From the NCBI GenBank assembly GCA_948567375.1, contig OX419761.1, positions 43,500,243 to 43,564,242 of the forward strand: DNA of 64,000 bases. Direction: 5' to 3'. Positions 100 to 63,234 of the stretch are shown in pieces (the stretch's first letter is position 1; each line of letters starts with the position of its first letter). Origin of the DNA: Lunularia cruciata (Eukaryota; Streptophyta; Marchantiopsida; Lunulariales; Lunulariaceae). Under the pieces are notes generated by a model. It ran no database searches. It saw nothing but the letters and a program-made list of their open reading frames with translations, and had not been told where the DNA came from. The translations under genes and the position numbers were made by a program.

Positions 100-2640
100 T
101 TTGTAGTGGGCATGCCAAGTGATGACTTCTAGGAAGAAGCTTCCTGGCTAGCTTAGCTTGCATGCCAAGTAGATGGCTTCTTTGATAAAGCTTCTTGGGA
201 AGTTTCCTAACTAGTTAAGCTTGCACACCAAGTAGGCAGCTTCTAGAAGGAAGCTTCTTGGTTAGCTTTCTTGCACTCTAAGAAAATGGCTTTTAGGAAG
301 CTTCTTGAGAAGCTTCTCAAGAGCCTTATATTCTTCCCTACAAATAAAAAAGCCCAAGCTCATGCTAGCCATTCAGAGTCCCAATGTGATCTTTCACTCC
401 AGTCTTCCATTCTCCTATTTCTCTCATTGGTCTTTACAAGCAAGGTGATCTGCACTTGAGATCTTATCACCTCTATCTTCATTTTCATTATTTCTTTGTC
501 ATTATTGCTTATCTTCTTCTCTTGAGTTGCCTTGCAGTCCACAAACACCTTCTCTGGCTGGTATGCACCAAGCTTGAGCACTGTGATCTTGGCCTTGGTA
601 CTCCAAAATTATTTCTTGTACTTCCCCAACAATTTGTTGTTGTCTTGCTTCCATACCTTGTAGCTCCCCAAGAAAGCATCATACTCTACCTTCTAACAAT
701 GTAGCTCATTCTCCTTAGCTACAAGTGTTGTCTCAAGTTCTTGGACCTTGGACCACTCTCCATCTCTGGCTGCACCACCATCATGGTTCTCACAGCTTTG
801 GTTGCATGAACAACACTTCTCTTCAGCCATTGCAAGCTGCTCTTGGAGCTATGTGAGCTCATGATTATGTACATGGCTCAGACATTGTTCTTGGTACTTG
901 CATTGCTTCTGAGCAATAGTAGGCTGAGCCTCCAACCATGCAATACTACCCTTTGCTTCAAAGAATCCTTCTCCACTCCCAACTTCTCCTAGACCACGGT
1001 TTGTATATGGTAGTGAATAATAAATACTGTATCAATATCTATAGTATGTCATCATAGGGTCTCTTGGTTGGAAGCAAGAAGCTCTTTGAGCACATTCACC
1101 TGCCCCAATACCTGAATAACCCACAATGACAATGGGAGATAGTTCAATGCAAGGAAAAGTGCTATGCCCCTTTCTCCTTACTAGGCCCCAATCAAGTTGC
1201 CTCTCCTTGTGAGACTCATAGCTCTTCTTCTCTAGGCAAGTCATCCAGATTTTCTATTGAGATCACCAAGGTGCTCTCCACTATCAGCACCACTTGGGAG
1301 CTTGATGCTCCATCCTTATCTTTATTTTTTTGTTCAACCACCATTGCTTCTGATGCTACCACAGTCTTGGTAATAGTTGTTAGAATCAAAAACAAGCTAT
1401 CCAAATATAGGGACCCTCTCCTTCTTGGTTGTTAACCTTTTTTAGCACCTTAGAATTTTCCTTGCTCACTTGATTTCCTCCACCTGATTGAGCTAAGTGG
1501 TTTGGGCATCTTCAATTTCTGGTTCTTGGGGTGGAATATTCACCCTTTGTTTTTATAATAGCATAACAATTGGAACATGCATTATCTCCTCCTTCAATTC
1601 TCGGGTTGAAGGAGAGGCTTTTTGCATTTGAAATATTAAGATATTTTCCTCTTCATCCACATGCATTTCAACTATCTCAAGAGCATGTTCGTGTGGCATG
1701 TCTCCTCCACTACTGTGGTTCGAGCGGATTGCACCTCCATGCCTATCTCAACATCACCTCCCTCATGATCAGAAGACAATTCAATATTGGAGGAGGAAGT
1801 CAACTGCCTCAAGGGTGATTGCACCACTGCAAAGGATTGTTCCTTTACTTGATTCTTAGGTGGGGGAGCCATATTGGGTGTGCCTTTTGAATCATGATAT
1901 CTCCCACCACACTTACAAGTCCTCATTCTGACTCAGAAGCAGAATCACTATCCCCTAAAGACTCCACTGCTTGGGAATTACGCTTGTGCTTTTTCCTAAT
2001 CTACACGTCTTGTAACCCATTTCATTTTTCTAGTGCTTGCCCCAACAATCTTGGTGAGCTTGACCCATTTCTCCATTTGGTGGTACTTAATCAAAACCTC
2101 TTTGTACTTCTTAGTCTTTGCTGCACACTTAGGTTGAGCTTGATGGTACCCGTACAGATAGTAATGTGCAAGGATGAGCCTTCTCTCTTCCTTCTCCAAA
2201 AATTGCATCCTGATATAGAAATGAAAAACAAACAAGGAGAGAAAAGTATTTTTGGCATTCACTACAAGTTCTCCATCAATTCATGGGGTTGGTGGTAAAA
2301 CATCTTTGCCTGATCCACATGTTTCTCATTGTGCAACAATTGGAAGAAGGTGGCTTGCACATTTTTGACATAAGAAGTTTGGGTTGACTTGAAGACCTTA
2401 ATGAGCAAGGTCACCATGGTGCATCCAATGGGATTTTTATACCCATTCACCTTCCAACCATTCCCAGTTTTTTCTTTGATTTGAACAAGACCTTGAACTT
2501 CCTTGCTGTTTCTTCCATTGCTTGGGACCATTCCTGATCAAGGTACATTGCTATGGGCATTGAGGTGGACCCAAGAACCTTTTGTCAATGCTATTGAATC
2601 CAAGCAAACATATTGCCATGAAATGAAATGAAATGAATTG
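100..2640 (-). pseudogene. G-family repeat protein relic, copy G1
   Basis: Read on the minus strand, this stretch gives a long but frame-broken protein. Its N-terminal part (about 2,640-2,000) has the segments SYVKNVQATFFQLL, AKMFYH, FVFHFYIRM and LEKEERR, which recur in three other places (18.3-19.4, 49.7-52.1 and 61.3-62.1 kb). The C-terminal part (about 1,000-350) is rich in Lys, Glu and Gln with a coiled-coil look, and ends in short tandem repeats. Several stops and frame changes show it is not an intact gene. I do not recognise the family. A distant relation to the putative plant transposon protein domain (Pfam Transposase_32) is possible but untested. No LTR was identified at either end of this copy. 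Confidence 0.55.
110..325. repeat. Degenerate tandem repeat, four units of about 50-63 bp
   Basis: Four successive units carry a CCAAGT-like start followed by a GCTTCTAGGAAGAAGCTTC-like core. They begin near 111, 161, 224 and 274 and have diverged by substitutions and small indels. The array falls at the C-terminal end of the minus-strand G1 relic, where it would encode a short repeated peptide. Confidence 0.6.
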
Positions 2641-5600
2641 GTGAAATTTGGGTTCTTCTTCTTTAATTTCAGGATTATGGAAAGATAAAAGAAATCCTAT
2701 ATCCACAGCAAGTACTGCAAGCACTTTGTGTTCACATATGCATAGTACTAATGAACCAATTTCTACACTCTTAGAGAGCACAAAGAAGCCCTAGTTGGCT
2801 TCTTCTTTGTTTACATTATGTGGCCAAACGTTATCAATTCAAATTGTGCCACAAATTCTTCTTTACACTCTTAGTCCTAATCACACTCTCACCCAATCTC
2901 TTGTGCAGAATGGAAAAGGTTACTTCACTGCCAAGAAGGCTTGTTCTACTATGCCTCCACAATTCCAATGACAATGAACTTTTGGAGACGGCACAATCTC
3001 AATTTGATTCAACCTACTCCATATCATGAGGTAAATATTTGTACTTATCAATGATTTTTTTTCCAAATTTTGGTGGGTAATAGTGGTTAAATGTCATTTT
3101 TCCCACATGTGTGAAGCATCACAAGGATTAAAAGTTGAGGAAATCAGTTCTTTGTCCCATTTGGCAGTTTCTTGTTTCTATGAATGCCAATGTGTACAAC
3201 CTATCGAATGATGCTAACATGGCAACCATGATTATATTCATGGTCTCGGGGTAGTCCTACTCAGATAGTATCCATAAATCCACCCATTTCTCATATAAAA
3301 TTTTGTAGGCTCATGGTGATTGGTGGAGTACCGACCAGAAACCTATCTAATCTTGTCTATTACTAACATTCTAACCTAGAAACCTTTAACATAGCTCCAA
3401 AGAATAGAGAAAAAGAAAAATTTGCATAAGGAGATGCAAGGTGGGCTACCACAACATATTTCAAAGAAATTTGAAGATGCGATGAAAGTGCAGCTAGTGG
3501 AAACCATAGGGTAATACCCTATGGCTTCCACTAGTTTACTAATTAAGATTTTTAAAGGCAAATGTAGTTCTTGTAGTAGATTTTAGGAAGAAAATAATTA
3601 CTAGCACAAGGGAAATAGGCAATTTATTTTAAGTGTAGAACACATGATTGAAATTCTCTTTAACCTCAAACTCTACCTTCATCTTAATATGTATCTTTGC
3701 TCAAAAAATGCTTTTTGGTTTAGGACCATTTGTTTAACCAATCATTGCAAGAGTGTAATTACTTGTAAAGTAAGTAACAACAAGAAGTTGTGATTGGTGG
3801 CAGTTGCACAGTCATCTCTTAAATGAGCTTAGCAAAAGATCAATAGATCAGATTAGTGACAAGCAAAGTAGGTGTAGTTAGAATATTTCTAGCACTCTTA
3901 GCCAGTGATCATCTTCATCTTGAGAGTAGGAAACTGCATGTATGGGTTGCATCCACGAAGACTATGTTTACTTCTTTCATAATCAAAACATTTCAGCTCA
4001 CAACTTTCCGTTATGTTGAATGAGTTTTGCTTACATCTTTGATTTTATACTTGGTCAAGTACAGGTGAGGAATTGTGCAGTAGGAGTATGTGTTTGAGTA
4101 CTAGCCTATGAAATTCACTCTGAATCAAGGAAGTTACCATTGACATTCGGTGGGAATGAGTGCTTGAGTACTTAGGCAAGAAATTTGCACATTATCAAGG
4201 AAGTTATTCTTGACATTCTTAAGGAGTGAGTCAATGTGAGGAAGGCTTTTTGGAACAATGGAGCATTGAGAGTACCAAAGAATAGAAAATCCAAGTTGAT
4301 AATCAATTTTGGATTTTTTGGGATTGTGGGTTGTGGGAAGAGATGCAAGTAGTTAGTGATGGCATTAGGGTGAAAGAACCTTTGGCCTGAAATATACAAG
4401 TGCTCATGAGATGTGCACCTATGTGTACACCCTTGGGTAAGAAACCATGACCCCACATGTCCCTCAAGAGATCCTTGTAATTCTATTTGGTGTTATTTAT
4501 CCGAATGAAAACTTCAAATTATTGCACACAATACTCCATGAACTCCCTAACTCTATGACATGGTATATATCTAAAATACTCCTTGCTCTACAAGGGGCAC
4601 ATCTCTCCTACTCTTCAACACAAGGACCATTGGTGACATAGATGACTACTACTCCACATAACATCTATCAAACAACAAATATCTAAGACTATAATCTTCT
4701 TCCATCTTATGTAAGCATAAATCAAGTAAGGAATAAACTCTCAAGAGTAGCTCATCCTTTGTCTCAACATCTAAAGTCTAAAAAACTTACATGTGAGTGT
4801 CATCTTCCTCTCCTCTAGCCACTCAATTAGCTCAAGAGTATGTTTGAAATGGGGTAGAGGTGCAAGTCAAGGTTTCCAAGAAAAAATGTCTATATTGAGT
4901 GTCATCACACAAGGTTCTTCCCTAGGCCCTCCTTGCAAATGAGGCTACATTTGCGTCTCCTCCAACCATTTCTTTAATCCTCTAGTTTGACTGATCATCT
5001 CAACAATGTTGGCCTAAGTCTCATGAGTGATAATATCTAAATAGTCAGTATGAGTCTCCATATATGCTACTAACTCTGCAAGTGATCTCATAGCCTCATC
5101 TTGAAAGAAGGTCCTTCCACCTCATTATAAGCCCCCTCTAGAGCTGTCCTCACCTCAAAGAACTTTTATCATACGAATAAACTCTCATAAATCAAAATCC
5201 TCTTGAATTTCTAAGCCTTTGCCATCAACTCCCTCTAAGCCACAACTGCATCTACCTCAGCTAATCTCTCTTCCCTCACAATCTCTGCAATAAAAATGCC
5301 TTGAATGAATCTTTCCCCTCTACCAAACCCCACTCTCTCTCTCTAGTAAGTTCCCCATATTATGTTCCATCTCTTGAGGAACCCATTCTCTCCTCCAAGT
5401 CTCCCATAGTGTACTCCTACTCTTGAAGAACTCACTCTCTCCTCCAAGTCTCCCATAGTGCACACTCTCTCTCTTGAAGAACTTTCTCTCCTGACTCTAA
5501 GTCTCCCATTAAATGCTCCCATTCAAGAAGAACCCATTCCCTTCAATGCAATCAGCCACTCTAGCACTCACCAACAAAACACTATCAAGGTCTCTCTCTC

Positions 5601-18299: not shown

Positions 18300-19425
18300 G
18301 ACGTGTTTGTTGTATTCCTCCAGTTCATGGTGGTATTGCTTAAGACACTTTTGAACTAGGCATCACCGTGCTTGTGCATACTAGAGGAACTACATGTAAC
18401 TGGAGGATTACCACAAACATGTTGAGGAGCTGATTCAAAGCTGTAAAGGTGAAGGAGGATCAGTTGTGAGAAGTCTTGGCCTCTAATTCATGTATCTCCA
18501 ACTTTAACTCCCACAGCTTAGGCTACCACAACAACCAATTCCACTTGGGTCATTAGTCTATTAGCAATGTCTTCCATGACTGTAAGGACTCTCATTTGTT
18601 CCTCATCCAGAGTATCACGGATGGATTGCAACTCCATCTCTACCTCTTGTCTGACTTGTACTTGAAGGATGTGGGCTTTGTCTTCATAGTCAGCCATGAT
18701 AGTGGACAACTTCTTGATGCACATCTTGGCGGTCTGTCCAAGGTGGCATCATGGTGTGCCAAGCAGGGATGTGGTATCCCTGTACCTTCCAACAATTCCT
18801 TTTCTTCTTGTGTTTGAATGAGGACTCAAACTTCCTTGTCATGTCTTTTGATGGTCAAGGCCAGTCTTGATCAAGATGCATTGCACACCATGGTAACCTT
18901 GATTATGATTTTTTTCATCTTGATCTCTCCTTTATATTCTGGTTGGTGCTGATAATATCCTGAGGAATAGTAATGTGCACAAAAGAGCTTCTTCTTCTCT
19001 TCTTTCCTAAGTAGTCTCATCCTGATATAAAAATGCAGTATGAACAGTGAGAGAAAAGAAGGTCCTCCTGTTGTTTGCAACTACTCTGTAAGTTCTTGAG
19101 TTCAATGATAGAACATCTTTGCACAATCTATGGGTTTTCCTTTGTACAGTAGTTGGAAGAAAGTCACCTGCCCATTGTTCACATATGTTGTCAGTGAGGA
19201 TCTGAAAAAATTCATAATCAAGGTTACCATGGTATGCCAAGCAGAGCCATGGTATCCCTGCACATTCCTTGCCTTCTTGTGTTTGAACAAGCACTCAAAC
19301 TTCCTTGTCATATCTTTTGATGGTCAAGGCCAGTCTTGATTTAGGTGCATTACTTCCGGCATTGTATCAGACCCAAGCACTTTTTGCCAATGCTCTTCAG
19401 TCCATGCAAAAACATTTCCCCTAGA
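18300..19425 (-). pseudogene. G-family repeat protein relic, copy G2
   Basis: The minus strand encodes, in pieces, HWQKVLGSDTMPEVMHLNQ, TRKFECLFKHKKA, TTYVNNGQVTFFQLL, DCAKMFYH, LFILHFYIRM, LLRKEEKK and AHYYSSGYYQHQPEY. These run in the same order as in G1. The C-terminal part (18,724-18,518) is coiled-coil-like (VRQEVEMELQSIRDTLDEEQ). Stops and frame changes make it a pseudogene. The foldback at 19,431-19,893 begins immediately beyond the recognisable N-terminal end. Confidence 0.6.
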
Positions 19426-19430
19426 GTTGT

Positions 19431-19893
19431 AGAAGCTTTGATCAATTTGAAAGACTATGAGAGAGGATGATAGTGATTGAGAATATGAAGGGAAAATCGG
19501 GCTTGAGATGCATTTTCATACCATGATGTTTCCTATGAATAAGAAGACTGGCATTGCATTTTAGTCACCCAAAGTAAAGAACTAGGCATATTAATGCTAT
19601 GCAGAGTACCTAAATTTGACACATCTATGCTTTCTTTTCCTTAATCTTTACTGCCATTGGGAAGCATGCAAAATCCCAAATTCATAGTAGAAAGCATAGA
19701 TGTGTCAAATTTAGGTACTCTGCATAGCATTAGTATGCCTAGTTCTCTACTTTGGGTGACTGAAATGCAATGCCAGTCTTCTTATTCATAGCAAACATCA
19801 CGGTATGAAAGTGCATCTCAAGCCTGATTTTCCCCTCACATTCTCAATCACTATCATCCTCTCCCATAGTCTCTCAAATTGATCAAAGCTTCT
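19431..19893. repeat. Large foldback: 205-bp inverted arms, 53-bp loop
   Basis: The left arm (19,431-19,635, starting AGAAGCTTTGATCAATTTG) is the reverse complement of the right arm (19,689-19,893) with only scattered single-base differences. The loop is 53 bases. A transcript across it would fold into a long near-perfect hairpin, which in plants is a potential Dicer substrate. It may instead be a foldback or MITE-like insertion, or a template-switch duplication. No target-site duplication was identified. Confidence 0.9.
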
Positions 19894-21150
19894 AAGCTCT
19901 TCTTGTTCATAAAATTTTCCACCCACACAACTTCAAACGCTCCAATAATGGGTAGAGCATTGAGTAGATTCAATCAAACCTCACTTCCTTGTGAGGCACT
20001 GCATTAATACACTTTAATCGATCAGTTTGAGATTTTGGCGGGCATTTCTGGTTAATCAATGTGGTCCACTCATGTGTGAAGCGGCAAGAGGACTGATAGA
20101 GACCAAAAATGGATCTTTATCCTACATGTGAACTCCTTGTCAAGCAAGAAGTTGAACCATTACCAATTGACGGTGGCTCAGATATGTCATCCCACACTTG
20201 TGTTTGTGGTACCTTTTTTCATGGTAACTTGAACATATGCTCCACTCTCTGGGTGACTCTTTAGTAAATTTTCATGGTGATTGAGGTATAAGCCATACTT
20301 TATATCTTCAAGTATCATACTACTCAACATGCTATGCTATTTGGGGAAAACAACCAAAAAAACAGAAAACACGCTTGAGTGAACATAAGATGGGTTGCTA
20401 CAATGCTAGACAAATAAATGATATTGTAAGTACTCTAATTTGGAGGTCCTCCCTACATAGTCCTTCTACTAGTACAAAATGGGTCTTGAAGAGATTCCAA
20501 ACCTATTCTCCAAGTCATATCATGGAAAATTTATTTCTATCAATAATTGCCAATAGCAGAATATGTTGGTTTATTGCCACTCTTGTAATGAGGAGGGCAA
20601 AATCAAATTGATAGACTTGTTCTATTGGGCTAAAACTTAAGGTCTCTTGCTATAGTCAACTAAACGCAAAAATTACATCTACATGTATGTCATGCATTAA
20701 GGTAGGTCATGGTAGGAAAAGATACCATGCTGATTGATCCTTGTTTTCTTGGCATGGTGCTTGGATGGCTTCTTCCACCTCATGGACATTGATAATTCTC
20801 AGAGATCAAAATGATACAAACAACAGTTGGCTAGTGATGGGATTAAAGCGTGATCCATGGTATTGTGGAATTACCAACTTGAGCCATTCTTGGACCTCTC
20901 TTGAATTTTATGGAAATCTCTTTGTGGTAACCCACTCCATGCCTCCTAACATATATTTTTGTTATTCTTTTTTTTGTGCAATTGGGTGACTACCTAGGTT
21001 AGATTCATCTTAGCAATTAGGATTTAGGACTTATAGCCCAATCACCCAAGAGATATTCTAAAATATACTATCACGAGATATCATCTGAGTGAAGCCACCT
21101 CATGACCACAATAATGATGACCGTCATGACCATGATAATGATGATGGTCC
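19894..21150. other. No recognisable gene
   Basis: Only short frames without family resemblance are present. A run of CATGAC/ATAATGATG-like short repeats occurs near 21,100-21,165. The stretch may be the degraded 5' part of gag element D1. Confidence 0.4.
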
Positions 21151-24857: not shown

Positions 24858-24865
24858 GAGGTCGT

Positions 24866-28690: not shown

Positions 28691-29530
<840 letters not shown>

Positions 29531-29601
29531 TTCTTACCTTATGGTAGTAAGCTAAGCTTCCAAGTTTGATTCTTATCCAAAAACATCATCTTGTCCTTCA
29601 T

Positions 29602-37943: not shown

Positions 37944-38485
37944 ATTGTCATGAATCAAATGTTAATCCAATCACGAAAACAAACAGTGAATGGACACAAG
38001 ATTTATTATCGAGAGTCACCCTACCTGGGTTTCATCCACACATAGAGACACTTCTTCGCGAGTTCCACCAAACTCAATAGGATTGTTACCCTCAAAGATT
38101 ACTGAGAACTTTAGAAAATAAACTCTTTTCTCCCACTCAAGAAGAAAGAACTCTCGCATTTCTTCTCTTGACGACACACCCAACCCAGTGTTTGTAACGT
38201 TGAAATCAACATCCCGTTGAAACAAAAGAACACTATTCATAACTAACACTAAATGGCGTCATAGGCTGTGCTAGCCCTAAGCCCGACCACGTTAGTTCCG
38301 TGTCCATTTCAGCAAAAGCTCATGCAAAAGAAATCTAATGCTCAACAGTTCCTGTTATCCGTTAACTTTTCTAAGTCTAGAATGGAATCAAAAGGGCGAC
38401 GTCCCTACTGATAAAGTTGTCTGGTTCGTGAAACTCACATAGTTTGAGGAACCGGATTTGATGCCATATTCCAGTTTCAGCTGTC

Positions 38486-42281: not shown

Positions 42282-43404
42282 CAATGTCTATCTTAGACTA
42301 GATTTAGTGAGATCAGAATTCAATGAACTTTGTTTTGTGAATTGAAAGTATGAACTTTGCTTTGTGAATTGAAAGTAGGGGCTAGATGCAAAGTAAGAGA
42401 GGTAAGAGTGCAATGTCTTTGGGTGAATTACCCAAGACATTAGAAGAGATTGGGTTCGAGAATAAGAATGTAGATGGATTAAACGTGATTCCAATTTCAG
42501 TTCTAAGGAAACAATAGGACTAGTAGAGGAATTAGTAGTAATAGATAGAGCCAAAGTAGATGAAGCAATTGTAGTTACATTGGGACTAGAAGTCAAAGTG
42601 TAAGTAGACATTGGATTGGATTAGTAACAGATTTGAGATATGAAGAGGCAAATATGAAGAGTGGTTTATCATTTTGGATCTGTAGGTTGGTAAATGTGTT
42701 GTAGAATAGTCTATAGTTAGATAACTGTCAAGTGCTTTGCCTATTTGAGGGAGGCATTTGCAGTGTGTTGTTGTTCAATATTGAAATTCTTAAGTTGAGT
42801 AAAGCAAAGTATTGTAACTCAATGCTTGTTGTTTTAGCTTAATTCCAAGTATCAATTTGTGCATGTTTGTGAGTGCTTGGAGAAATTCAAAGTGCAAGTC
42901 AGTGAGGTTGTTGGATGTTGGATTTTGCAATTCTGATTTCATTTTGTGTATTTGATCTTGAGTGGATGCAATTGAAAACAATGCCTTGATAGATTCATGA
43001 GGAATTCTAGTATTGGTAGTATTCTGCAATTATGAGTGCAACATTGGATTGATGTGAAGTAATTTTGATTGAGGAAGTTGTGCCTTAAGTAGAGGAATGG
43101 AACAAAATTTTGAGTTGAAGTGGCCTTCTTTAGGAGAATTGAATCATTACAATCAAGATGTGTTTGGAAAGAAATTGAAGTTTTGTGATTTATGGGTGTT
43201 ATGATTTGTGACAAGACTGCAAATTGAGCACTTGTTACTCTCTTCTGGGTTTGGTTTCTACTTGAGAGATTAAAGACGCAACTAAGAAGAACTGATTGTT
43301 ATATTTTACTTCATATTTTACCATTTCTAACCAATATCTCTATGAGAACAAATTTTTACTTGTTGATTACTGCAAAAGTGATACTTGGTAGGTTATTACA
43401 CACA
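42282..43404 (-). mobile_element. Element F1, truncated copy of F2
   Basis: Read in reverse complement, it matches 48,912 to about 50,015: the LTR-like start TGTGTGTAATAACCTACC (from 43,404), then ATAGAGATA, CAGTCTTGTCACAA, and the leader and the 3' part of the G-type coding region, ending at CTAAATCTAGTCTAAGA (42,282-42,310). It is fused to copia C on the left and adjoins gypsy H on the right. Confidence 0.7.
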
Positions 43405-44814: not shown

Positions 44815-45517
44815 TGTGAACCGGCCTATCTCTCACTCAGGATGAACCGTTGATGGCTATTATGGTAGCGCACCATGGACTAAGAAGGCAAGGAACCCCA
44901 ACTCCATCATACTCCTCCAAGGCTAACACTCCAAGACTCAAGACATTGCTCACTAGAGAACTCAATGAGAGAGAGATAGTTGCAAATGAAAGGATGATGA
45001 GTACCTCCTCACCCCTTGTTTATATACTTGTGAAATAGTTATGTACCAAAGTTACTAATTACCGTAGTAACTCAAGTTACTAGACTAAAAGTCAAATAAA
45101 GTCCAAAAGTAGAAAGGAATATCCATCACATGGGCATATTCCCCTAAGCATGTGGTCTTATCTTGACCCAACCACTAAGTCAAGGATTCCTTCATATGGG
45201 CTATCCTTGGACTAAAGAAGAATCCAAAACAAAAAGGTTTGCGGGCCCAAGAGTTCTCAACTCTTTCCTCAAAGCCAAACACCTAGGAATAATACCAAGT
45301 CAACACACTAAAATCCAAAATAGTGGTGCTCATCTTTTCTACTTCCTCTTAAGTAAGGTCCATTCTATCTTAGCTATGACTAACTTTAGCTAACCATGAC
45401 TAATATAGAACCATCCTTTATCTCTATATAAAAATATCTCTTAAGTACTTGTAATACCAAGCTAAATATCAAAATATCACAATACCACACACATGCACAT
45501 GCTAAATGGGTGTTACA
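44815..45517 (-). repeat. Solo LTR R1 inserted in gypsy H RNase H
   Basis: About 703 bp, TGTGAACC... to ...GGGTGTTACA on the plus strand; reading on the minus strand it begins TGTAACACCC, a common gypsy LTR start. It matches R2 (55,829-56,533) and R3 (62,168-62,856) along its length. It splits RNase H exactly between VDMS and NTTMGIFLTQYDGQ. GTCC stands on both sides (44,811-44,814 and 45,518-45,521), a 4-bp target duplication. No internal element sequence is present. Confidence 0.9.
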
Positions 45518-48464: not shown

Positions 48465-48911
48465 GTGTTGGACAATGTTGGTAGTCATAAGGCCAACATC
48501 ATGATGGATCAATTGATTGCTTTAAATCCTACCTTTAGGAAGGAACTTAGAGGTGATTTGAGTTCTACAAGGAGTAAGAGAAAGAAGAAAGTAAAGGTTC
48601 CAATATCAATGGGGTGGTGGATGCAAAACCATCACAAAGGAAAACTTGTGACTATGCCTCCAAGATTGATGCAAGGGTGAATGGTCACATTATCAAGGAT
48701 GCACTTGTTGATGGTAAATTTATGGTAAATGTTATGTAAGAGAAGTTGATGAAGAAGTTGGGTATGATACCCTCTAGACCTTCAACATTTATAGTGAGCA
48801 TGGCAAACAAGCAACAAGTTTGACTAGTAGGTTTGATAGACAAGGTGATAGTATCCATTATGGGAAATCAAAATCTCATGACTTTCTAAGTTTTGAAGGA
48901 TGCAAGTTATG
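48465..48911 (+). pseudogene. Gypsy E2 gag end and protease, first half
   Basis: The piece after KANIMMDQLIALNP and a Lys-rich stretch leads into ARVNGHIIKDALVDGKFMVN, where a gypsy protease normally has an Asp-Gly-Gly/Ser active site; here the third residue is Lys. LGMIPSRPSTFIVSMANKQ and LIDKVIVSIMGN follow. The reading ends at 48,911 at the F2 insertion. Confidence 0.75.
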
Positions 48912-51900
48912 TGTGACAACCTAACAAGTATCCCTTTTATAGTAATCACGTAAATGAAGTTTGTTTCCATAGAGATACAAATCAGAAATGGTCAAATACA
49001 AAGTAAAGAATAACAATGTAGTTCTTCTTGAGTTCTTTAGTCTCTCAGGTAGAGAGAGTAAAGAAGAGAGTAAAAAGCATTGACTATCAGTCTTGTCACA
49101 ATTAACACACCATAATAATAGTACTATCCAATTTTTCCAAACCAACTTTGATTGTGATGATTCAAATTCTCTCGTAGACGGCTACTTCACTACAAAATGA
49201 CTTCACCTCAGAATTGTGTTCCACCTCTCCATTGAAGGCACAACTTCCTCAATCAAAATTGCTTTGCATCCACCCCGCAATGTGCTCACCAATGCAAAAT
49301 ACTATCAGCACTACAATTCCTCTTAGATCTGTCAAGGCATTGCTTCGATTACACTTAACTCAAGATCAAACACACAAAATGAAGATCAAGGCTACAGAAT
49401 CCAACATCCAACAAGCACAATGACTTGCAATTTGAATTTGTCCAAACACTCACAAACACGCACACAAAATTGACACTCTGAATTAAGCTTAAGCGACAAG
49501 CACTAAAAATCAGCACTTTTCTTTACCTATCTCCAAAAATTAGGAACATTGAACAACATAAGACTTCAAATGCCTCCTTTAAATAGGCTGAGCACAAATA
49601 GTTAACTAACAACTATACCGTTCTGACAACTTTACCAACCTACGGATCCAAAGTGACAATGCACCTCTTCATATTTACCTCTTCAAATCTCAAATTTGTT
49701 ATTACTCTGATCCAATGTCAACCTCAACTTTGGCTTCCAAACCCAATGTTCCTTCATAGATTTCTCCTTCTTCAAGTTTCCCTAATTCTACTCCTATATC
49801 TTCTATTTCTACTATCTCTTCACTCCAAACTACAATTGCACTCCTATCTAACCTATCTACATCATTATCTTCTGACCCACTCTTCTCTAATATCTCAAGT
49901 AACTCACCTGAAGACACTTGCACTCCTACATCTTCAAGTTTGGGCTTCTTCACAAACTTTATCTCACTACAAAGTCTATCTAAATCTGATCTTACTAAAT
50001 CTAATCTAAGACTCACGTTATCTCCTACCTCTAACATCTTTCTATCAACTCGATCTTTCAAACAAATCAGAAGATTGTTCAATTCAATGTCCTTTGCCTT
50101 CCTTTTCCTTGTCTCCTGCACCAACAACTTCAACTTGTGCAGTCTTGCTTCCTCCAACTTTATCTTGGCTTTAGTACTAAGAATTGATTTCAACTCCTTC
50201 ACCATTGCTCCTATTGTATCCACCCTCAGAACTACCTTCTCCTTACTTCTCTCCTCCTCCAGCTCATTCCAATACATCATCAACTCATCCTCAAACTTAG
50301 CCTTCAATGCTTCCTTCTCTTGTCTATTCAAGACTAGTTAATTCTCAGCTCCTCTCAGCAATCCTCACAATCCTTGTTCTTCCTCCCAACTATGGTTTGT
50401 TAACTCTTGTTGCCAGGCTTGGTCCTTCTTTGTGGTACTCTTCTTCATATTCTCCAACTCTTGCTCCATCACTGTTGCACTTGCCTTTGCATGTATAACC
50501 TCCACTCATGCACCAACAATTTCTCTTTTCATTACCTCAACCAATGCCAATGCCAACTTCTCCTTCAATTCCTCACTACAGTTCACCAATTCTCCTTCAT
50601 GGTATTTGAGCTTTTACTCCAAAGAGCTGCCTCCACCCAAAGTTCTTTGGCTTCCATCTCTACTTGAGTTAATTTGCTTCTCAACATCAAGGTCTCCTCA
50701 CTCCATTTTTCTATGACCACTAACTCATCCCTACTTTCAGATGAGAACTTGTCATCTCTACTTTCTTCTACTGCAAAAACACCAGCAAGGGACACATGAT
50801 CTTTGATAAATACTCAACTCCATCATACTTTCCCTTGCTGTCTCTAACATCTTCACCTTTGGCAGGTAGTTCTTTGACAAGTGCCTTACCCCAAAGATGT
50901 GATCTTTGTATCTTCAATGTCTCTCCATCTAAACTCTCTTCCTTGGTTGTAGCTTTGCTCAGTCCAATGATGACTACTTGAGTACTTCTCATCTCCCTAG
51001 CTACCCTTGGAATACCAAGGCATCTTCTTCTTCTTTCTCATACTTGCGCTATGTTGTTGACAACTCCAGACTCGGCTTCTTTGCTTCCACAATCCCTTTT
51101 CTTGATTGCTAGACTTTAGTCTCTTCTTCACTGCCACTACTTGACTCTTTGCTCCACCGTGTGAATTCTTCTTCTTCTCCCAAGGCTTCTCCCTTTGACT
51201 CAATTTCTCCCTTTGATTCCTCTTCCAAAGTTGATTCCTTCACTTCTACTGGTGCAAGCTTTAGGTGGAGTTTTTGTAGCTTTTGAGGCTACACCAGCAT
51301 AATTTTTCCTTTGGGTCTACTTGACTTCTTGGGCATGGGAATATTGACTGCCAATATCTTTTCCTTTCTGCTCTTTAAGTAGTAATCGTCACCTTTAGGG
51401 TAGTATCATTCATCCTCATCAACTTCCTTTCATAAATCAGGGTGAAAGTGGGATCACATTCATCCTCTCTCCTTTGAGCTCAGTCAATTCAGCCCAAAGT
51501 AGAAATGAGGCACAAAGGGTAAAAAATAGCGGGGCTGCATATCCATTCTCCAACCATTGATCATCTGCTCCATGCACTAGTGCAAAAATTTTGCCCAACC
51601 CATCGCCTCTCCTACAAAAATTTGATGAAAGAATACTACTTGCTACATTGTTACATGGGTGGGTCACTCTAGCTTGAACATAGCTATCATTGTTCTCACA
51701 ATCCCTCTTTGCATTGGATCCTTATAACTATCCACCTTGTACCCATTCTTGGTCAGGTCTGTTGAAAGAATTTTGCACCTCAGCAATTTCTTCCAAAGCA
51801 TCACACTCTCAATAAAAGCCAATACCTCCTACCTCTCCTACTTCTCTCCCCATGACTAATCTCTTATCCAACTCAGTCCATCAAGTGCGATTTCATCTCT

Positions 51901-52636
51901 TCACTTCATGCTTAGGCCCATCCTTGCAATCACTAGTGGCAATCTATGCCATGAACCTTAGAAAACTCAAAAATTCCAATTCTAGGCTAGAAATGTGATA
52001 CAAAGTCTCAATTAGACTTCAATCCTTGCCACTATATATAATTGACACATTGCAAGACCCCTCACCACACTCTGCTTATTTACTTTTGGTGCCATCTTGT
52101 GCTTCCTCACTCTCTATTTGTGAAATATCAAACCCAAGACTTTAACCCACTCCTCTTGCGTACTCACCATTTTCATTCCTTTAGGTTGACTCCAAATAGT
52201 GACAAGATAACATCTTGACATTGAAGCATTTCCTCTTTGAAATCTCAATTTTATAGTCCTTTGCTGATTAGTCATTCTTCAGTCACTTCTTTGTGTTACT
52301 CACTGATTCAATGAGTTTATTTCTTGTCACTTTCAAGAACATCTTGGTCCCGAGGTAGTCACTTTCTTCTTGTGCCCTTTCTTGATTGGCGGAATGCAAG
52401 GAAGGTTTTTACTGGATCTTTGGATCAAGGGGCACCCCCCAATACGATATCCTCATACAATGTCATCATCTTCACACTTCCTTTTGTCTGACCCAAGTCC
52501 TTTTGACTTTGATCCGAGGTCAACTTCAGGTTTACCCAAACATACAATTACTCTTATTTCTTCCCTATTTAGCCCTCCTTTGGCTTTACCAACGCACTTC
52601 TTCTTTAAAACTCAAAAAAAAATTGTGGGTACTATA
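48912..52636 (-). mobile_element. Element F2, inserted in gypsy E2 protease
   Basis: The inserted segment is bounded by TTATG on both sides (48,907-48,911 and 52,637-52,641), a 5-bp target-site duplication. Its left end TGTGACAACCTAACAAGTAT matches the LTR-like end of F1. Coding sense is minus and holds a G-family protein. The right end (...GTACTATA) does not obviously mirror the left end, so an LTR pair was not demonstrated. No RT, integrase or transposase was seen, so it looks non-autonomous. Confidence 0.75.
49702..52130 (-). pseudogene. G-family protein, copy G3, with coiled-coil tail
   Basis: N-terminal domain (about 52,000-51,440): LELEFLSFLRFMA, ATSDCKDGP, WTELDKRLVMGREVGE, YKVDSYKDPMQRGIV, VVFFHQIFVGEAMGWAKFL and FVPHFYFGLN. 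The same order occurs in G4. The tail (51,203-49,702) includes a 209-residue open piece with heptad-like charged text (YWNELEEERSKEKVVL, TKAKIKLEEARLHKLKLL), likely coiled coil, and an acidic end. Several frame breaks lie between pieces. Function unknown; no catalytic motif is visible. Confidence 0.65.
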
Positions 52637-52810
52637 TTATGATTTGCTACTAGGAAGGCCATTCTTAAGAGTAGCACAAACAATTGATCAATGGCACAAA
52701 GGATACTTGAGAATTGAGTCATCATACCATTGGGTTTTAGTTCCAATATCCAATATCCAATATCTAATATCAACCATACCTCACATTTAGATACACCATC
52801 TTCTGATTAA
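52637..52810 (+). pseudogene. Gypsy E2 protease, second half
   Basis: DLLLGRPFLRVAQTIDQWHK continues the protease text broken at 48,911. LLGRPFL is the conserved C-terminal protease motif of gypsy elements. It marks the right side of the F2 insertion. Confidence 0.8.
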
Positions 52811-55828: not shown

Positions 55829-56533
55829 TATAACACCCATTGATGCATGTATGCTCTATAGGGATATTAAATTTAGAATTGTAAGTAGTGAATAAATATA
55901 ATCTATATAGAGTTTAGCTAAGCTTCTACATTAGTCATGATTAGCTAAAATTAGTCCTAGCTAAGATAAAGATGACACTATTCTAGAAGAAGGGAAAAGA
56001 GTGAGCACCAATATTTTTTCTTTTAGTGTATTGACTTGGTATTCCTAGTTATTTGACTTTGAAGAAAGAGTTGAGAGCTCTTGGGCACCCACAAGCCTTG
56101 TTGATATGGACTTTTACTATAGTCTTAGGATAGCCCATGTGAAAGAATCCTTGATTTAGTTGGTAGGTGAGGATAAGACGACCTACTTATGGGATTATTC
56201 CATGTGCTTGGATATTCTTTTAGACTTTTTTACTTTATTTGACTTTTATCCTAATAACTTGAGTTACTCCAACAATTAGTAACTTTGGTTTGTAAGTTTT
56301 TCACAAGAATATAAGCTAGGAGTAAGGAGGTACTTATCATCCTTTCATTTGCAACTATCTCTCTCTCTCATTGAGTTCTCTAACGAGCAATGTCTTGAGT
56401 CTTGGAGGTACCTTGGAGTTACAGCTTGGAGAAGTGTGATGGAGTTGGTGTCTCTTGCCCTCTAAGTCCATGGTATGCTACCTTAATAGCCAATCATATG
56501 CTCATCCTTAGTGAGAGACAAGCTGGCTCACAT
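55829..56533 (+). repeat. LTR R2 (5' LTR of D2 and possibly 3' LTR of E2)
   Basis: About 705 bp, TATAACACCC (first G changed) to GGCTCACA, matching R1 and R3. A purine-rich CCGGAGGTAAA precedes it, as before a 3' LTR. A TGGTATGAGAAG primer-binding-like site follows it after 14 bases, as after a 5' LTR. It may serve both elements in an LTR-internal-LTR-internal-LTR array. Confidence 0.85.
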
Positions 56534-56644: not shown

Positions 56645-59254
56645 ATGGCATCTCCATCCTCATCAAAAGAGAAGAAGAAGTTAAGGATGAGCATAAGGAC
56701 TCCAACCAATGGGGAGGAAGAGGCAGACCATCCCATATGCAAGAAGAGAACAACTCTCTCAAAAGAGAAGGGAACCAAGGCTAAAAATCTGGAGGTTCTA
56801 GCTCCCACTTTTGACAAAAGGACCGGTTCTAAATCATCCAAGGAAGTAGATGTCATCCAATTGGATTATCATAGTTGGCATTAGAAGCAATTGTCTTGAC
56901 CCTAGAGAGTTAAGTAGTTGGTAGAGAGTATGAACACCTTGGAAAAGGAATTCTTTAACTTCATGATAGCCTCAGGCTCAAGAACCTTGAGAGCCCGCAA
57001 AAAAGGTGATAATTGCTCCACATATGAGAGATATAACGGAGCAAGAAAGCTAAGCCTTGCAATGATAGCAATTTGAGCACTAGAGCAAGGAGTTGTCCCA
57101 TCCCCAAAGTTGGTGAAGAAGGTCCTTTTAGACTCTCATGACTTCCAAGAGTGGTTATGGTTGGTGTTTCCACCCACCCATGGGTCCATTTATAACCTGA
57201 TTGTTATTGCCACATTTCTATGATTCATGATATTTCACTCCTTAGGGATAATAAACGTGAATCAAGTCAAAGCGGTTGCCGCAACATTCTATGAAGTGGA
57301 CAAAGAGTGCTTGTCTTGGTATCCCTTTCTTCCTTGGCCAAACTTGGTGTAGGATATGCAAAGGAAGGTATGTGCTTGTTTTAGTTGATTACAATGGGAA
57401 ACATTAGGTTTTACCTTGGTAGACCAGATTTACAATTTCAACTTTACCCTCCTTACTACAAGAGTAGCTATTATTCAATATGTACCTCTATGTGCAACAA
57501 TTGGCATGGAGAAATTTTCCATGCTATGGTGTACAGGATAGACTCTTGGGAACCTTGGAGGACCCAATGTGTAATGGCCGATGCAATACTATGAGGGGAT
57601 ATCTGACTAGAAAATATCCACAAACTAACTTACATGGTAGTAAATCTCCCATACTTCACCTTGAGGTATTTAGTTGACTGCTTTAAGTTGGTAAATAAAA
57701 GGCTGGCATTGAAGCTACATGTATGTTTGATGCAGAAATATATCAAAGTAGCTTGAGTATCCAATAAGGAGATTGCTAGGATCTATAAGGACACTAGATT
57801 GCAAACACCCACATTGCCATCATAAACAATGATCCCAAATCATAGAATGTTCAAATCAACATAGTGATCTAGGAGCTTAAGATTGCTCTTGAGCAGCTAG
57901 AATTTGCATAGTTAATAGGTCAATCTTCAGCAATCTTGGAAAAATGGGTACAAAGCAACCAAAGCCATGCTATCTAGTACCCTTTGACATATGATGCATT
58001 TTGTTTGTGTATGATCAAGTGCTACAACAAGGTGCATGATGCAGACCTTAGTGAGGAGGAAGCTGATTTGAGTGGTTCCGATTGTCCCAAACCCATCTTG
58101 TCTATACTTGAATCAAGCAAGCCCAAGTAAAAGGACTTCTTGTACCTTATCATCTAAACTAGAGGATCTTGGTAAGAAGTCCCATACTTTCCGTAGTAAT
58201 GCATGAAAATTTCACTTATGTACTTAGGCATGACCAAATCCCTCATGTAACTATTTTTTTCCAAGGCCATGTAGGACTAATAGGACCAACCAATACATGG
58301 TTGTGTTGGTTGTTCCTTAGCTTCCAAGATCCTATACAAATCAATGTTGTGCTTTTTGATATGGAGCTTATAGAATTACCCACACCTCCTATTCTTTGGA
58401 AGAATCCTCCATGTCTTCCAGTTCTTCTTTGGAATCTGAAGAAGAATCAAAGCCAAGAAGAATACAAAGGCAAGGAAGAAAGAAGCCATTGACACCCCCA
58501 ACAAAGTCATAAATAAGACCCACACTATGTTGGAGACACTTATAAAAGAGTTTGCGGATTTTACAATCTAGATGATTGGGGCAAAGGACCAAAAGAAGCC
58601 TCCTTCATTTGTCAAATCCAATGTATGGTGCACTACGTGTGATAAATCAGGCCATGCCAACATGGAGTGTTTGACCCGCAATGCATTTCCAATGCAACAA
58701 ATTGATTGGGTTCCAAGATAGGACCAAAGTGAGGAAGAAGGGGCAATGAACTTGACTCAAGAAGTACAGCCTTAGATGAGCACATGATACCAAGGTCCAA
58801 GGTATGGACCAAAGGAGTATAACAACAACGCTCTCCAATGAAGACCACTGATGGGCAGCCAAAATAGGCCTCAAAATGTTGCACCGGGAGCATGTTATAA
58901 TTGTGGCTCTATGGGCCATTGGTCTCCAAATTGCCCCAATCAAGGCATTAGGTTGGGTATGTTCCACTTTGTGGAAATTGCAAAGGATTGGGCCACATTG
59001 GAAATCAATGCCCTCAACCACCTAACCCAAAGCCAGCGGTAGAGTATGTACAGACCTCAGCTGAGCATGGTGTGCTTCAGTCAAAAGGAGATATGAATGT
59101 AAATTGTATCACTCTTGAGGACGAGAGACCTCAAGAAGGAAGTCCAGCTTCAGAAGGAGAATGGTTGGATCTTGAAATTTTGAAAGTTGAGACATGCTCC
59201 GATAAGAAGAAGCGTGATCCCAAAGAAGTGAGTATGACTTCTTTGTCTTCATAA
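56645..59254 (+). pseudogene. Gypsy-type gag of D2 with three zinc knuckles
   Basis: It starts MASPSSSKEKKKLRMS with a basic region, then broken frames alongside D1's gag (INVNQVKAVAATFYEVDKE). The C-terminal part has three intact CCHC knuckles of CX2CX4HX4C form: CTTCDKSGHANMEC (about 58,635), CYNCGSMGHWSPNC (about 58,893) and CGNCKGLGHIGNQC (about 58,978). Three knuckles are more than the one or two usual for plant gypsy gag. Stops separate the parts. Confidence 0.8.
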
Positions 59255-59779
59255 GAAGGCAAAGAGGCTGCATCCAAAAGCTTTTTTTTTGCAAAGGAGG
59301 AGAAAATTCTAGCCAAAGCTAAAGCCAAGGCCTTGCAGAAAGAAATTCAAGAGGCAGTACAAAGAACTCAAGAGATGAGTTTGAAAGAGAGTACAAAGAT
59401 GAAGCCTTTAGTGTTTCCGGCTGATATCATATCTAAAGTCAAGGATCTAATCTAAGCCAAGGTGGGTAAACCCAAAGAACCTTGGGTCAAGACCACCAGT
59501 ACTCTGGTCACCATCATGAAATGCCCCAAAGTCTAGTTTGAGTAAGGAGAGACTTCTAACCCAAAGTCCAAGGTGAAGAAATCGAGGTTAGAAGGAGTGC
59601 CCCAATATGATATTATGGCAGATTTGGCATCCATGAATTGCTAATGTCATATTTAAGCAATTGTGGGAGGAAAACAAGCTATATAAGAAGTAATTGAGTT
59701 CAACCCTCAAGAAAGTAAGAGAGATGACCAAGAAAGACTTGCAGACCATTTATCATATTGAAAAAGAGGATCTGTGATC

Positions 59780-60228
59780 TCCCAAAGTGGATGTGGAGAT
59801 TGCGGGTTGCATGATCACATCAATACCCATTGATTTGGGTTTTGGTGTAAATGTTATGACAAAGGACACTGAAAATTGTTTGGGGTACCATATGTTTTGA
59901 GCCAACACCCCAAATTTTGAAATTTATGGACCAAACTAGGAGATGGCCTTTGGGCATGCTGTCAAATATCACTATGATCATTGGAGGGGCACCCTTCAAG
60001 TTAAATTACATCATGTTGAGACTCATGACAAAAACTGGTTACCCACTTTTGATTGGAAGAACTTGGTTGTACATTGCCCAAGTTGTTGTGGATTGGCACC
60101 AACAAAAGTTGACGTTTAAGGACATTGCATCCAAAGACCAAAAGTTGGTGATTGTGAGTTGGACAAAGGTTCACCACCTTGGGGAAATGACTTCATCCAA
60201 AGATGAAGATGAATTTGTAGATTCATAG
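59780..60228 (+). pseudogene. Aspartic protease of D2
   Basis: GCMITSIPIDLGFGVNVMT stands for the active-site region (usual Asp-Gly-Gly/Ser-Gly), and after a frame break GYPLLIGRTWLYIAQVVVDW gives the conserved LLGRPWL-type end. A Lys-rich tail and KDIASKDQKLVIVSW follow. The Leu in the active site and the frame break make activity unlikely. Confidence 0.75.
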
Positions 60229-60273
60229 TCTTTATCTTCCAAAGACTCCAAAGAAGAAGTCCAAGTCAATTAC

Positions 60274-60580
60274 TTGGAGTGCTATGATGTGGAGGTCAAA
60301 GACAAAGACCCATACAACATCGCCTCAGGTGAAAAGGATTTAGAGGAAGGGTGTTTGACTGCTATTCAACTTGGGTTAAGCCAAGTCAATCACATTGAAG
60401 GAGTCATCAACCCTAATGACTATCAAGATGTTGTCTTGGCCGAAGGTAAAATTTTGAAAATTTTGAAGATAGTCATTTTGGAGGAGTTTGCAAGATACAC
60501 TACCTCGTTTATAGAGTACCAGGATGTATTTGTTTGGTCAATTGATCAAATGTTGGGATTCCATGACAACTTGGATTGAT
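60274..60580 (+). pseudogene. Pre-RT segment of D2
   Basis: An open 101-codon piece ends with FIEYQDVFVWSIDQMLGFH, matching the segment before gypsy RT (usual form F..VFAW...DMPG). RT itself does not follow; recognisable pol ends near 60,720. Confidence 0.75.
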
Positions 60581-61257
60581 TTGATTGCAAGTGCAGCTTT
60601 GGTTAGGCAAAGATAGTATTGCCTGAACCCAAAGTACTTGCTCTTGGTAAAAGATGAGATTGACAAGTACTTAGGGGCCATGTGGTATCCAAATTTTTTG
60701 TTTTGTTATGTTTTGTTAAATTTTTGAAGAAGAAGTGTATTGAGGGAGCCGAATTATGAATTAAAGATGGGACTTATATGTCTTCAGAGGAAACCCAAAG
60801 AAGTCAACTTGGGGTCGGGAACCGGAAGTACTTGGATGGGGTTACAAAGAGACAAATCTGAAGAAGGGTGTCTTTGGATCAAGAAGCAAAGGCCAATACA
60901 AAGACGGTGTAACAACCTCTCGATGTGTCAAGCCGGACAAGAAAGTACACTTCAAGAAATGGTGGAGGTAGGAGAAGAATACCTTGACATTGATAGGAAA
61001 CCAACACGTAGAAGAAGTAGGGGTTGATTTTAAAATTGACTGAAGAATGACTGCACTTTGGGGTACTATAAAATTGCAATTGAGCAAGGAGAAATCAAAT
61101 ATGTTAAGTAGATATCTTGTTTCTTTGAGTAGTTGTCCTGCAGTAATGCACGTCAAGAAGCCAATTGAGAGTGAAATTTTCCAAAGACCAGAAGGGGTTA
61201 GAGTATCACATCTAGGAGAGGGGATAGTTTTTCAGCTAAAGAACCAGAGAGCAAATC
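60581..61257. other. Unassigned segment in D2
   Basis: Short plus-strand frames (for example 60,740-61,027) have no recognisable motif. It marks the switch from gypsy pol text to the G protein. Confidence 0.4.
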
Positions 61258-62116
61258 ATGGTGAAGAAGACTAAGAATGCACTCGTAGTGAGGAGTTTTT
61301 CAATTTGGAGGTTAGATGTCATAGCTAAGATCAAGGTCTTGAATAGACTTTGGATTACATTCTTGGCATGGAATTGGAATTTCAATTTCCCAAGTATCAT
61401 GGCAGAAATAGCTGCTAGTAGTTGTGAGGAAGGCCCTGAAGTCGTAGGGAAGAGAGGAAATCTGGCTCGATGGACTAAGTTGGATTGGAAGTTAGTATTG
61501 GGGAAGGAAGTACAAGAGACAATTGGTGTCACCTTCTATAAAAAAGTGTGATGTTGTAGAGTAGACCACGGAAATCAGAAACTCATTTTATGCTCCACGG
61601 ACCAACAATAGTTACAAAGTAGAGTCCTATAAGGACTTGATCAAGCAGAGCATTGTGGGAGCAATAATAGCCATGTTCAAACCCAAAAGAACAATATATG
61701 TGAACATGCAGTAGGCAGTCTTCTTCCACCAGATGTTTGCAGGAGTAAAGGTGAACTAGGCAAAGTGTTTCCACCAAAGAACAAGGTAGATGATCGTTAA
61801 TTGGAGAATCAATTTGCCTTCACATTACTTTGCACCGTTTGCAGTACACTTCTACTTCACATTAAATTTGTTAACAACGGAGGAGAGGCAATGTATGGTG
61901 TCACATTTCCATCCTAAACTACGATGAGAAGTGGATGAAGAGGAGCAGCAATATATGTTACAATTGCAAGCCGGCAATTACCACTTCATCAGAATGGGAC
62001 AAAGGGAGATGGCAGAAGGAAGAAGTCCAAAGACAAAGAAGCGGACTAAACTCAAAGAGGTAGCATTGCCCCAGCCACAACAAAAGACCCAAAGACTCAA
62101 TCCACAAGGTAAGTAG
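61258..62116 (+). pseudogene. G-family protein, copy G4, inside D2
   Basis: The first open piece (61,258-61,551) has LWITFLAWNWNFNFPSIMA, ASSCEEGPEV and RWTKLDWKLVLGKEVQE. After a frame break come YKVESYKDLIKQSIVGAII, TIYVNMQ, AVFFHQMFAGVKVN, AKCFHQRTR, PFAVHFYFTLNLLTTEER, and a basic C-terminal piece (GRSPKTKKRTKLKEVALP). Order and spacing match G3, and the core matches G1 and G2. The core's G.kvnwak.h pattern loosely recalls Transposase_32-type proteins; this needs a profile search. No catalytic motif is obvious. Confidence 0.65.
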
Positions 62117-62167
62117 GCAGTGAAGGAGGAGACTTCAAAGATAGAGTTTAAAGGAGAGATAGAGTCT

Positions 62168-62856
62168 TGTATCACCCATTTGTGCATGTGTGTGGTATTA
62201 TGTATTTAGCTTAGAGTTACAAATACTTGAGAGATATTCTTTATATAGAGATAAAGGATGGTTCTACATAAGTCATGATTAGCTAAAGTTAGTCATAGCT
62301 AAGATAGTGGGGATCTTACTTTAAAGGAAGTAGAAAAGATGAGCACCACTATTTGGATTCTAGTGTGTTGACTTGGTATTATTCCTAGGTGTTTAGCTTT
62401 GAGGAAAGAGTTGAGAACTCCTGGGCCCGCAAGCCTTTTTGTTTTGGATTCTTCTATAGTCCAAGGATAGCCCATGTGAAAATATCCTTGACTTAGTGGT
62501 TGGGTCAAGATAAGATCACATGCTTAGTGGAATATGCCCATGTGGATGGATATTCCTTTTTACTTTTTAACTTTACTTTACTTTTAGCCTAGTAACTTGA
62601 GTTACTCCAGTAATTAGTAACTTTGGTGCATAACTATTTCATAAAATATAAACTAGGGGTGATGAGGTACTCATCATCCTTTCATTTGCAACTATCTCTC
62701 TCTCATTGAGTTCTCTAATGAGCAATATCTTGAGTCTTGGAGTATTAGGATTGGAGGAGTATGATGGAGTTGGGGTTCTTTGCCTTCTTAGTCCATGGTG
62801 CGCTACCATAATAGCCATCAGAGGTTCATCTTGAGTGAGAGACAGGCTAGCTCACA
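62168..62856 (+). repeat. LTR R3 (3' LTR of D2)
   Basis: 689 bp, TGTATCACCC to GCTCACA, aligned throughout with R1 and R2 and closer to R1 (for example GGGCCCGCAAGCCTTTTTG is shared with R1). Preceded by purine-rich AAAGGAGAGATAGAG, a polypurine-tract candidate. Confidence 0.85.
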
Positions 62857-63234
62857 ATCTAGAGGAGGAGACTCAGAAGAAGCCAATCTCACACTACAAA
62901 GTGAGGAATCTAGAAGTGAGAGTGATGGTGAAAAGGAAGTCCAGCAATCAATTGAGGCGGAAGAAGATGAGGCATTCCATGCGGTGTCATCGGGAAAATA
63001 GCCCACGTGTACCCTTGAGGCTTTTGGTTTGATAAATTTTCTTTTCTTTTTGAGTTGTTGTAAGGAACATGGATTTATGTCAATATGTCTCGGGTGTGGT
63101 TTTATGCTACCTTGCCGTGGGAGATATTTCCTATATTATTGTGAACCCGGGAAAAGTTATGGTATTATTAGTTCAAGGAGTCTTTTAATCTGGCTTGAGC
63201 CAAGAAATGATGTTGGGTTACACTAGCTCAGGTT
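62857..63234. other. Spacer after D2
   Basis: Short frames with an acidic Ser/Glu-rich reading (SRSESDGEKEVQQSIEAEED) but no known domain. It may belong to a further element beyond the window. Confidence 0.35.

Follow-up and report, generated by a model that had tools for sequence, protein, structure and literature searches.

A protein gene inside the long terminal repeats of Ty3/gypsy retrotransposons in the liverwort Lunularia cruciata

Introduction

Long terminal repeats (LTRs) are usually regarded as regulatory sequence, and a solo LTR as a scar that holds no genes, the formation of a solo LTR normally stripping the element of its genes. A protein gene inside an LTR is known from mouse mammary tumour virus (MMTV), an animal retrovirus, whose sag gene encodes a membrane-bound superantigen. 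In plants, the VANDALs are DNA transposons. According to the available passages of two reports, plant VANDAL transposons encode the VANC anti-silencing proteins, which act on their own family (PMC10398659, PMC5735166).

Accessory open reading frames (ORFs) between pol and the 3' LTR are already known in plant gypsy elements, as the accessible part of one study describes (PMC11963269). In that source, the Ty3/gypsy element Retand carries antisense ORFs with a Transposase_28 domain (PF04195) between pol and a 3' LTR of 315-1194 bp, and a DNA-binding, regulatory role is proposed for the ORF. Plant LTRs longer than 3 kb are also known: in the passages available of PMC3485330, the LTR retrotransposon Retrosat2 has LTRs of more than 3.2 kb and an extra ORF0 of undefined function. 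The literature covered was open access with few subscription papers, and in the parts of it that were available no precedent was found for a protein gene inside a plant LTR; the passages of PMC1560396 and of the gene-capture review PMC13317346 concern other matters than LTR-resident genes.

The present work concerns a protein family, here called G, in a 64,000-nucleotide stretch of the genome of Lunularia cruciata (the window, C11:43500243-43564242). The analysed assembly comprises 565.8 Mb in 74 contigs; in the accessible passages of PMC9985172 the species is given 580 Mb and gypsy bursts are described. The carrier of G resembles Retand, as far as the available passages describe it, in being a plant gypsy element with an accessory protein whose role is undefined (PMC11963269). 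Unlike the Retand ORF, G is in the sense orientation and inside a 3.7-kb LTR, and a genome-wide search for Transposase_28 (PF04195) gave no match over the cut-off. Retrosat2 shares the long LTR and the extra ORF, but its ORF0 is not described as lying inside the LTR in the passages available (PMC3485330). The likeness to MMTV sag, another gene inside an LTR, is positional, and no homology is suggested.

The G family and its abundance

The initial annotation had regarded four stretches of the window, G1 to G4, as copies of one protein. Their homology is borne out by an independent profile, built from natural frames of at least 150 aa at 18 of 20 loci elsewhere in the genome, with none from the window. 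When 1716 open frames of at least 30 aa (the window and L030-L032) were searched, 13 window matches had E<0.01, all inside G4 (best E 2.5e-51), G1 (1e-11), G3 (2e-10) and G2 (7e-7). Among open frames of at least 30 aa in the window outside these copies, no profile match reached E<0.01, the next having E 0.47. Inside the window, blastn paired G3 with G4 (65% DNA match, E 1e-24) and G1 with G2 (65%, E 3e-20).

In a first look at the whole genome, candidates numbered 9739 for the G4 core and 7868 for that of G2, of which 150 were scored in each case. Twenty loci of family A, to which G4 belongs, were chosen from 150 scored matches for long G4-like open frames and are, for that reason, no unbiased sample. 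Sixteen of these, together with three of six loci of the more diverged type C, make up the 19 rows of alignment A1; the LTR alignment holds 17 of the 20, L009, L019 and L023 being left out. A stop falls within a 270-aa stretch of G in 124 of 142 scored copies, so that most are decayed. G is a recurrent protein family found in bulk across the genome, and G1 to G4 are decayed copies of one protein gene.

Carrier elements

The family-A loci share a block of about 3.7 kb with sharp ends (TGTGG...CACA). This LTR begins with TGTGGTACCCACATTTTTTG and terminates with GTTGTCACA; the 20-base LTR terminus has 1374 exact occurrences in the genome (680 + 694), and the reversed control has 0. Loci L024 and L037 are the two ends of one element, C1:15927568-15941112, which is known from its ends. 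Its LTRs are about 3.7 kb each and 94.3% identical, the target duplication CTAAC stands on both sides, and G, decayed by stops, is present in both repeats. The frame is thus located within both LTRs of one element.

The remaining features are those of a Ty3/gypsy LTR retrotransposon. After the L017 and L024 LTRs stands the PBS-like sequence TGATWTTTGGCACCGCTGCCGGGGAT; TTTGGCRCCRCTGCCRGGGAT, likewise PBS-like, adjoins the LTR end in L012, L017 and L024, with a more changed version in L016. We take this PBS to be that of tRNA-Asp. In the same four loci gag lies 3' of the LTR and the PBS-like sequence, and the purine tract GAGGGAGAGGGAA precedes the L037 LTR. Across L017 and L029, the stretch downstream of it, the Pfam order is Retrotrans_gag, aspartyl protease (two matches, both under cut-off), RVT_1, RNase H, Integrase_H2C2 and rve (E 3e-6, under cut-off). 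L029 contains the protease, RT, RNase H and integrase regions; behind them come a purine tract and a second LTR, and the duplication here reads AAGGC. In sum, G lies inside the LTRs of Ty3/gypsy retrotransposons that have paired LTRs with TG...CA ends, a target duplication, a PBS, a purine tract and gag, protease, RT, RNase H and integrase. The initial annotation had suggested a protein of non-autonomous retrotransposons; its placement of an unrecognised family on LTR retrotransposons holds, but the carriers encode the genes of an ordinary gypsy element as well.

The 3' LTR in L029 (L029:4414-4553) is without LTR positions 567-2545 and so has no G core, whereas its 5' partner keeps it. This deletion of about 2 kb is private, 39 of 40 scored genome matches being one-sided; an amplification of the G-less LTR was considered and rejected, because the deletion is absent elsewhere among the 40. 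Of two other 3' LTRs, the candidate for L012 (L036) has no match to the L012 LTR, and that of L016 (L038) runs for about 755 bases before an interruption.

Target duplications were scored at 15 loci. They are exact over five of five bases in the solo copies L018 (AGACC) and L020 (TCAAG), match at four of five in L014, L015, L022 and L026, and at three of five in L010 and L013. In L011 both sides read ATGAT by eye, provided that its final LTR base is counted as a mutation; by script the score is 0. The other six (L012, L016, L017, L024, L025 and L027) score 0-2, and no match is expected there, since in five of them PBS-like sequence continues past the LTR end and in L027 integrase stands before the LTR.

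Copies in the window

The family-A LTR carrying G4 extends over 60681..62948 on the forward strand, its extent being given to the last match, and is interrupted at 62168-62856. It opens at 60681 with the 5' terminus TGTGGTATCC, recognised by terminus match on the forward strand. Positions 218-1281 of the L017 LTR match 60898-61971 at 72%, and positions 1480-1565 match 62861-62948. The decayed G4 frame, at 61146..62116 on the forward strand, starts at the conserved ATG at 61146 (LTR position 451) and not at 61258, with profile matches at 61240-61548, 61565-61711, 61790-61924 and 61928-62113. According to the LTR alignment, a TATAAAA box lies at 61067..61073 on the same strand, about 80 bp upstream of this ATG.

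G4 had been described as taking the place of RT and integrase between two LTRs. This proved wrong: G4 sits in the LTR from 60681, which is inserted in an RT gene. The target of the insertion is a related gypsy copy, whose gag, protease and RT start occupy 58392..60680 (forward strand), with 74-75% DNA identity to the L017/L029 internal region and tblastn matches for protease and RT. The exact LTR terminus is joined to this RT gene at 60680/60681. What had been supposed to be the 3' LTR of G4, at 62168..62856 (forward strand), is a distinct LTR-like repeat that interrupts the G4 LTR and occurs also at 55831-56532 and 44815-45517; the G4 LTR resumes after it at 62861. Of 40 scored genome matches to the junction with RT, 39 are confined to one side of it and overlap it by no more than 8 bases. 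The apparent lack of RT and integrase is therefore the result of a nested LTR insertion private to one locus, and a junction unique among the 40 scored matches marks no non-autonomous family.

For G3, the earlier description of a 5-bp duplication around an insertion without RT and integrase was accurate. The copy lies in a solo LTR, TATAGTACC...GTTGTCACA, at 48912..52636 on the reverse strand, between exact CATAA repeats at 52637-52641 and 48907-48911, and positions 624-1254 and 2450-3673 of the L017 LTR match it. Its being a solo LTR accounts for the missing RT and integrase. A natural open part of the G3 coiled-coil tail, an open frame of 211 aa at 49705..50337 on the reverse strand, matches no Pfam family over its cut-off. 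The 3' part of another family LTR, without a G core, lies at 42437..43400 on the forward strand, with a 72% match to positions 2685-3673 of the L017 LTR.

The window contains other features of a different kind. An open terpene synthase frame of 371 aa (34826-35941; TRI5, 9.4e-15), presumably of microbial type, stands among transposons. Peroxidase exons, which we take to be class III, occur at 13805-15332, 24854-26458 and 37216-38779, and parts of them are repeated in an inverted 1.6-kb duplication with 89.6% identity. The terpene synthase frame and the peroxidase exons agree with a non-seed plant. An (AT)n microsatellite at 29107-29538 falls within an open frame, presumably of copia RT.

A second, more diverged family

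Copies G1 and G2 come from type C, the more diverged of the two related families, A and C, in which G is present. On the reverse strand, G2 (18918..20402) has the type-C LTR start TGTAGCAACCC at 20402 and its core at about 18918-19419, partly duplicated; G1 (2099..3453) has the start TGTGGTAGCCCACC at 3453 and its core at about 2099-2716. A 133-bp part of the G2 core occurs twice, at 18750-18882 and 19228-19351, with 82% identity. We infer the putative type-C LTR from its 5' terminus alone. Among the matches listed, a G2-type core lies 0.84-1.7 kb downstream of a G1-like LTR start, on the same strand, at 14 of 49 sites (by eye).

In L031 the internal region of this family comes before G: protease, RT, RNase H and integrase lead to a purine tract, after which stand TGTAGCAGCCCACC and then G; integrase, the purine tract and TGTAGCAGCCC all lie upstream of G. 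The RT and integrase pieces of L031 are 49-67% identical to those of family A. In L033 the integrase end (2635-2893) is followed by TGTGGTAACACAC at 2993.

Further observations concern duplications. In L030, two stretches (3457-3951 and 4773-5408 as oriented) match the G profile, with best E 2e-14 and 6e-15; in the left one, a stop divides the matching frame into two pieces. This double match suggests a tandem or nested second G domain. L033, L034 and L035 (on C10, C1 and C8) are recent large duplications, with 9-kb stretches more than 93% identical over most of their length and an old G copy each. The G2-type pairs C8:47894905/47934721 and 64440670/64480486 share a spacing of 39,816 bases and are perhaps a duplicated block about 16.5 Mb apart.

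Reading frame and selection

G is one frame of about 816 codons, at LTR positions 451-2899. The ATG at 451 is kept in all 16 aligned LTRs with letters there, the stop at 2899, after EADDEVDIG, in 11 of 11, and an upstream stop at 346 in 14 of 16 copies. Across the 17 aligned LTRs (mean pairwise identity 0.80), divergence follows a three-base rhythm in one phase from about 451 to 2700, and in 28 of the 30 windows whose start lies at 451-2626 the variability of third codon positions is 1.4-3.6 times that of the others. The windows at 1876 and 2626 have a ratio of 1.2, and over the final 250 bases of the frame the rhythm is faint; outside it, the ratio reaches up to 1.65, at 3301-3675 and in the same phase.

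The median dN/dS of G is 0.176 (range 0.13-0.48; positions 460-2649, 136 pairs, which are not independent), by a simple Nei-Gojobori estimate with dS near saturation (mean 0.89). The LTR flanks, read in three frames, have medians of 0.55-0.78, the 3' flank used (2700-3699) overlapping the end of the G frame. In pairwise comparisons of L012, L016, L017 and L024, dN/dS is 0.26-0.71 for gag and 0.18-0.36 for G.

The two LTRs of one element behave differently. Between L024 and L037, differences by codon position number 54/34/46, a weak departure from evenness (p 0.10), compared with 110/98/230 between L024 and L015 (Fisher p 2.5e-4 against the L024/L037 pair). Within the pair dN/dS is 0.43, not 1 and slightly below the flank medians. 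For L024 paired with five other copies it is 0.18-0.24, and for L024 paired with its close relative L028 it is 0.48. A lack of third-position excess within an LTR pair is expected if inserted copies are neutral and only lineages that keep G persist. All 17 aligned copies have in-frame stops, 4-13 each. The search for intact copies proposed in the initial annotation yielded one uninterrupted G frame of 865 aa in the genome (match C1:1481581-1482390); 460 bases upstream of this match stands an LTR terminus. Read at the level of codons, these comparisons show that the protein sequence of G is kept by purifying selection between lineages, and that decay follows insertion.

A separate observation is that synonymous divergence in L012, L016, L017 and L024 is two to three times as high in G (0.22-0.84) as in gag (0.10-0.34); one LTR comparison in this work covered 14 of 18 LTRs. 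It looks as though the variants of G predated the elements, or as though the remainder had been homogenised.

Protein architecture and database searches

The ordered core proposed from the four window copies is common to the family, being recognisable with substitutions in 16 natural family-A frames, although that of L027 ends inside the last motif. Behind a conserved N-terminal part of about 290 residues come a basic and then an acidic stretch, followed by a long coiled coil and an end that is again acidic; in the natural frames the tail is long, charged and heptad-like. Seven natural pieces contain no transmembrane segment (highest 19-residue Kyte-Doolittle mean 1.63), on which ground an envelope was rejected as a candidate identity; gag was rejected because the element has its own.

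The view of G as an unrecognised family was sustained. Pfam gave no match over cut-off for 19 natural frames in a listing to E 10, no relative was found in PDB, and of 62 pattern matches in IMG/VR none was confirmed as a relative. HTH_TANC1 in one of the 19 frames (L030; E 2e-4, 21.4 bits against a cut-off of 27), DUF4998 in one (E 0.07) and C1q on one piece (E 0.009) were taken as chance matches, HTH_TANC1 and C1q being under cut-off and DUF4998 having E 0.07; beyond HTH_TANC1 and DUF4998 no Pfam family appeared to E 10. Transposase_32 (PF20167), a plant transposon-associated domain, had been suggested for comparison, but none of the 19 natural frames matches it at E up to 10, and genome-wide it has no match over cut-off and four sub-threshold ones (E 0.04-0.32). 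A very distant tie between G and PF20167 may exist.

Proposed expression and role

TATA[AT]A occurs at one alignment position in 12 of 16 family LTRs, and G3 and G4 have TATAAAA; as this is one hexamer, and permuted hexamers give 0.55 such shared sites on average, TATA conservation alone is weak. With the shared box 80 bp before the conserved ATG, transcription of G probably starts inside the LTR. If so, each LTR, solo LTRs included, could be a self-contained G gene.

With slightly better than even confidence, G is viewed as an LTR-resident gene in the same sense as gag-pol, transcribed within the LTR and encoding a trans-acting nuclear or nucleic-acid-associated accessory protein. Its placement in both LTRs of one element, purifying selection, decay after insertion and presence in two families are established by the comparisons above. 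Less certainly, the protein would act in trans as an oligomeric accessory in the nucleus or in association with nucleic acid. It might then regulate or de-silence its own element family, a regulatory or anti-silencing role that is offered tentatively, from architecture and analogy alone. The analogy is a possible one with VANC, as the available passages describe it, a transposon-encoded plant protein acting on its own family (PMC10398659, PMC5735166); DNA binding by G is hypothetical. That the LTR itself is a gene, with promoter, accessory gene of about 816 codons and end all within the repeat, so that both element and solo LTR can express it, is conceivable, at somewhat below even confidence.

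The same TATA box can be placed differently. G could be the first open frame of the genomic RNA, with the TATA at 371 as promoter and G in R/U5, translated before gag. The sole TATA[AT]A common to at least 11 LTRs does sit 80 bp before the G ATG, and G and gag run in the same sense, but such an arrangement would need R/U5 to be very long and gag to be translated from a position far downstream, and it is considered somewhat doubtful.

Some viral accessory proteins act in the particle, and the charged heptad-like tail, the basic stretch and the lack of a membrane segment in seven pieces would suit an accessory with a structural or packaging task that works there and not on chromatin, as a further coiled-coil protein of gag-like or matrix-like kind. 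The element, however, has a canonical gag with CCHC knuckles, and G matches no Pfam gag family, which makes this role unlikely.

LTR elements of plants are known to capture genes, and with 124 of 142 scored copies interrupted in the 270-aa stretch, G might be a captured host gene fragment that hitch-hikes passively in LTRs without function for the element. Constraint between lineages, set against the absence of a codon-position signal within one LTR pair, and the occurrence in two families related as their RT and integrase pieces indicate, leave this very improbable. That G marks non-autonomous elements, replacing RT and integrase, as G3 without these genes and the passage from RT start straight into a G-bearing LTR at G4 had indicated, is scarcely tenable and was rejected, because G3 is a solo LTR, the G4 junction lies at an LTR terminus and does not recur among the scored matches, and gag-pol is flanked by G-bearing LTRs.

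Conclusions

With a large protein gene under constraint inside them, these plant LTRs contradict the assumption that such repeats are gene-free, and G would go unnoticed wherever LTR elements are annotated from their internal domains. If G is indeed an LTR-resident gene for a trans-acting accessory protein, solo LTRs would be many potential suppliers of that protein, and the family could act through its own remains. Whether the remnants of elements support living copies thereby becomes a testable question, and G-bearing LTRs may bear on the gypsy bursts described in this liverwort genome.
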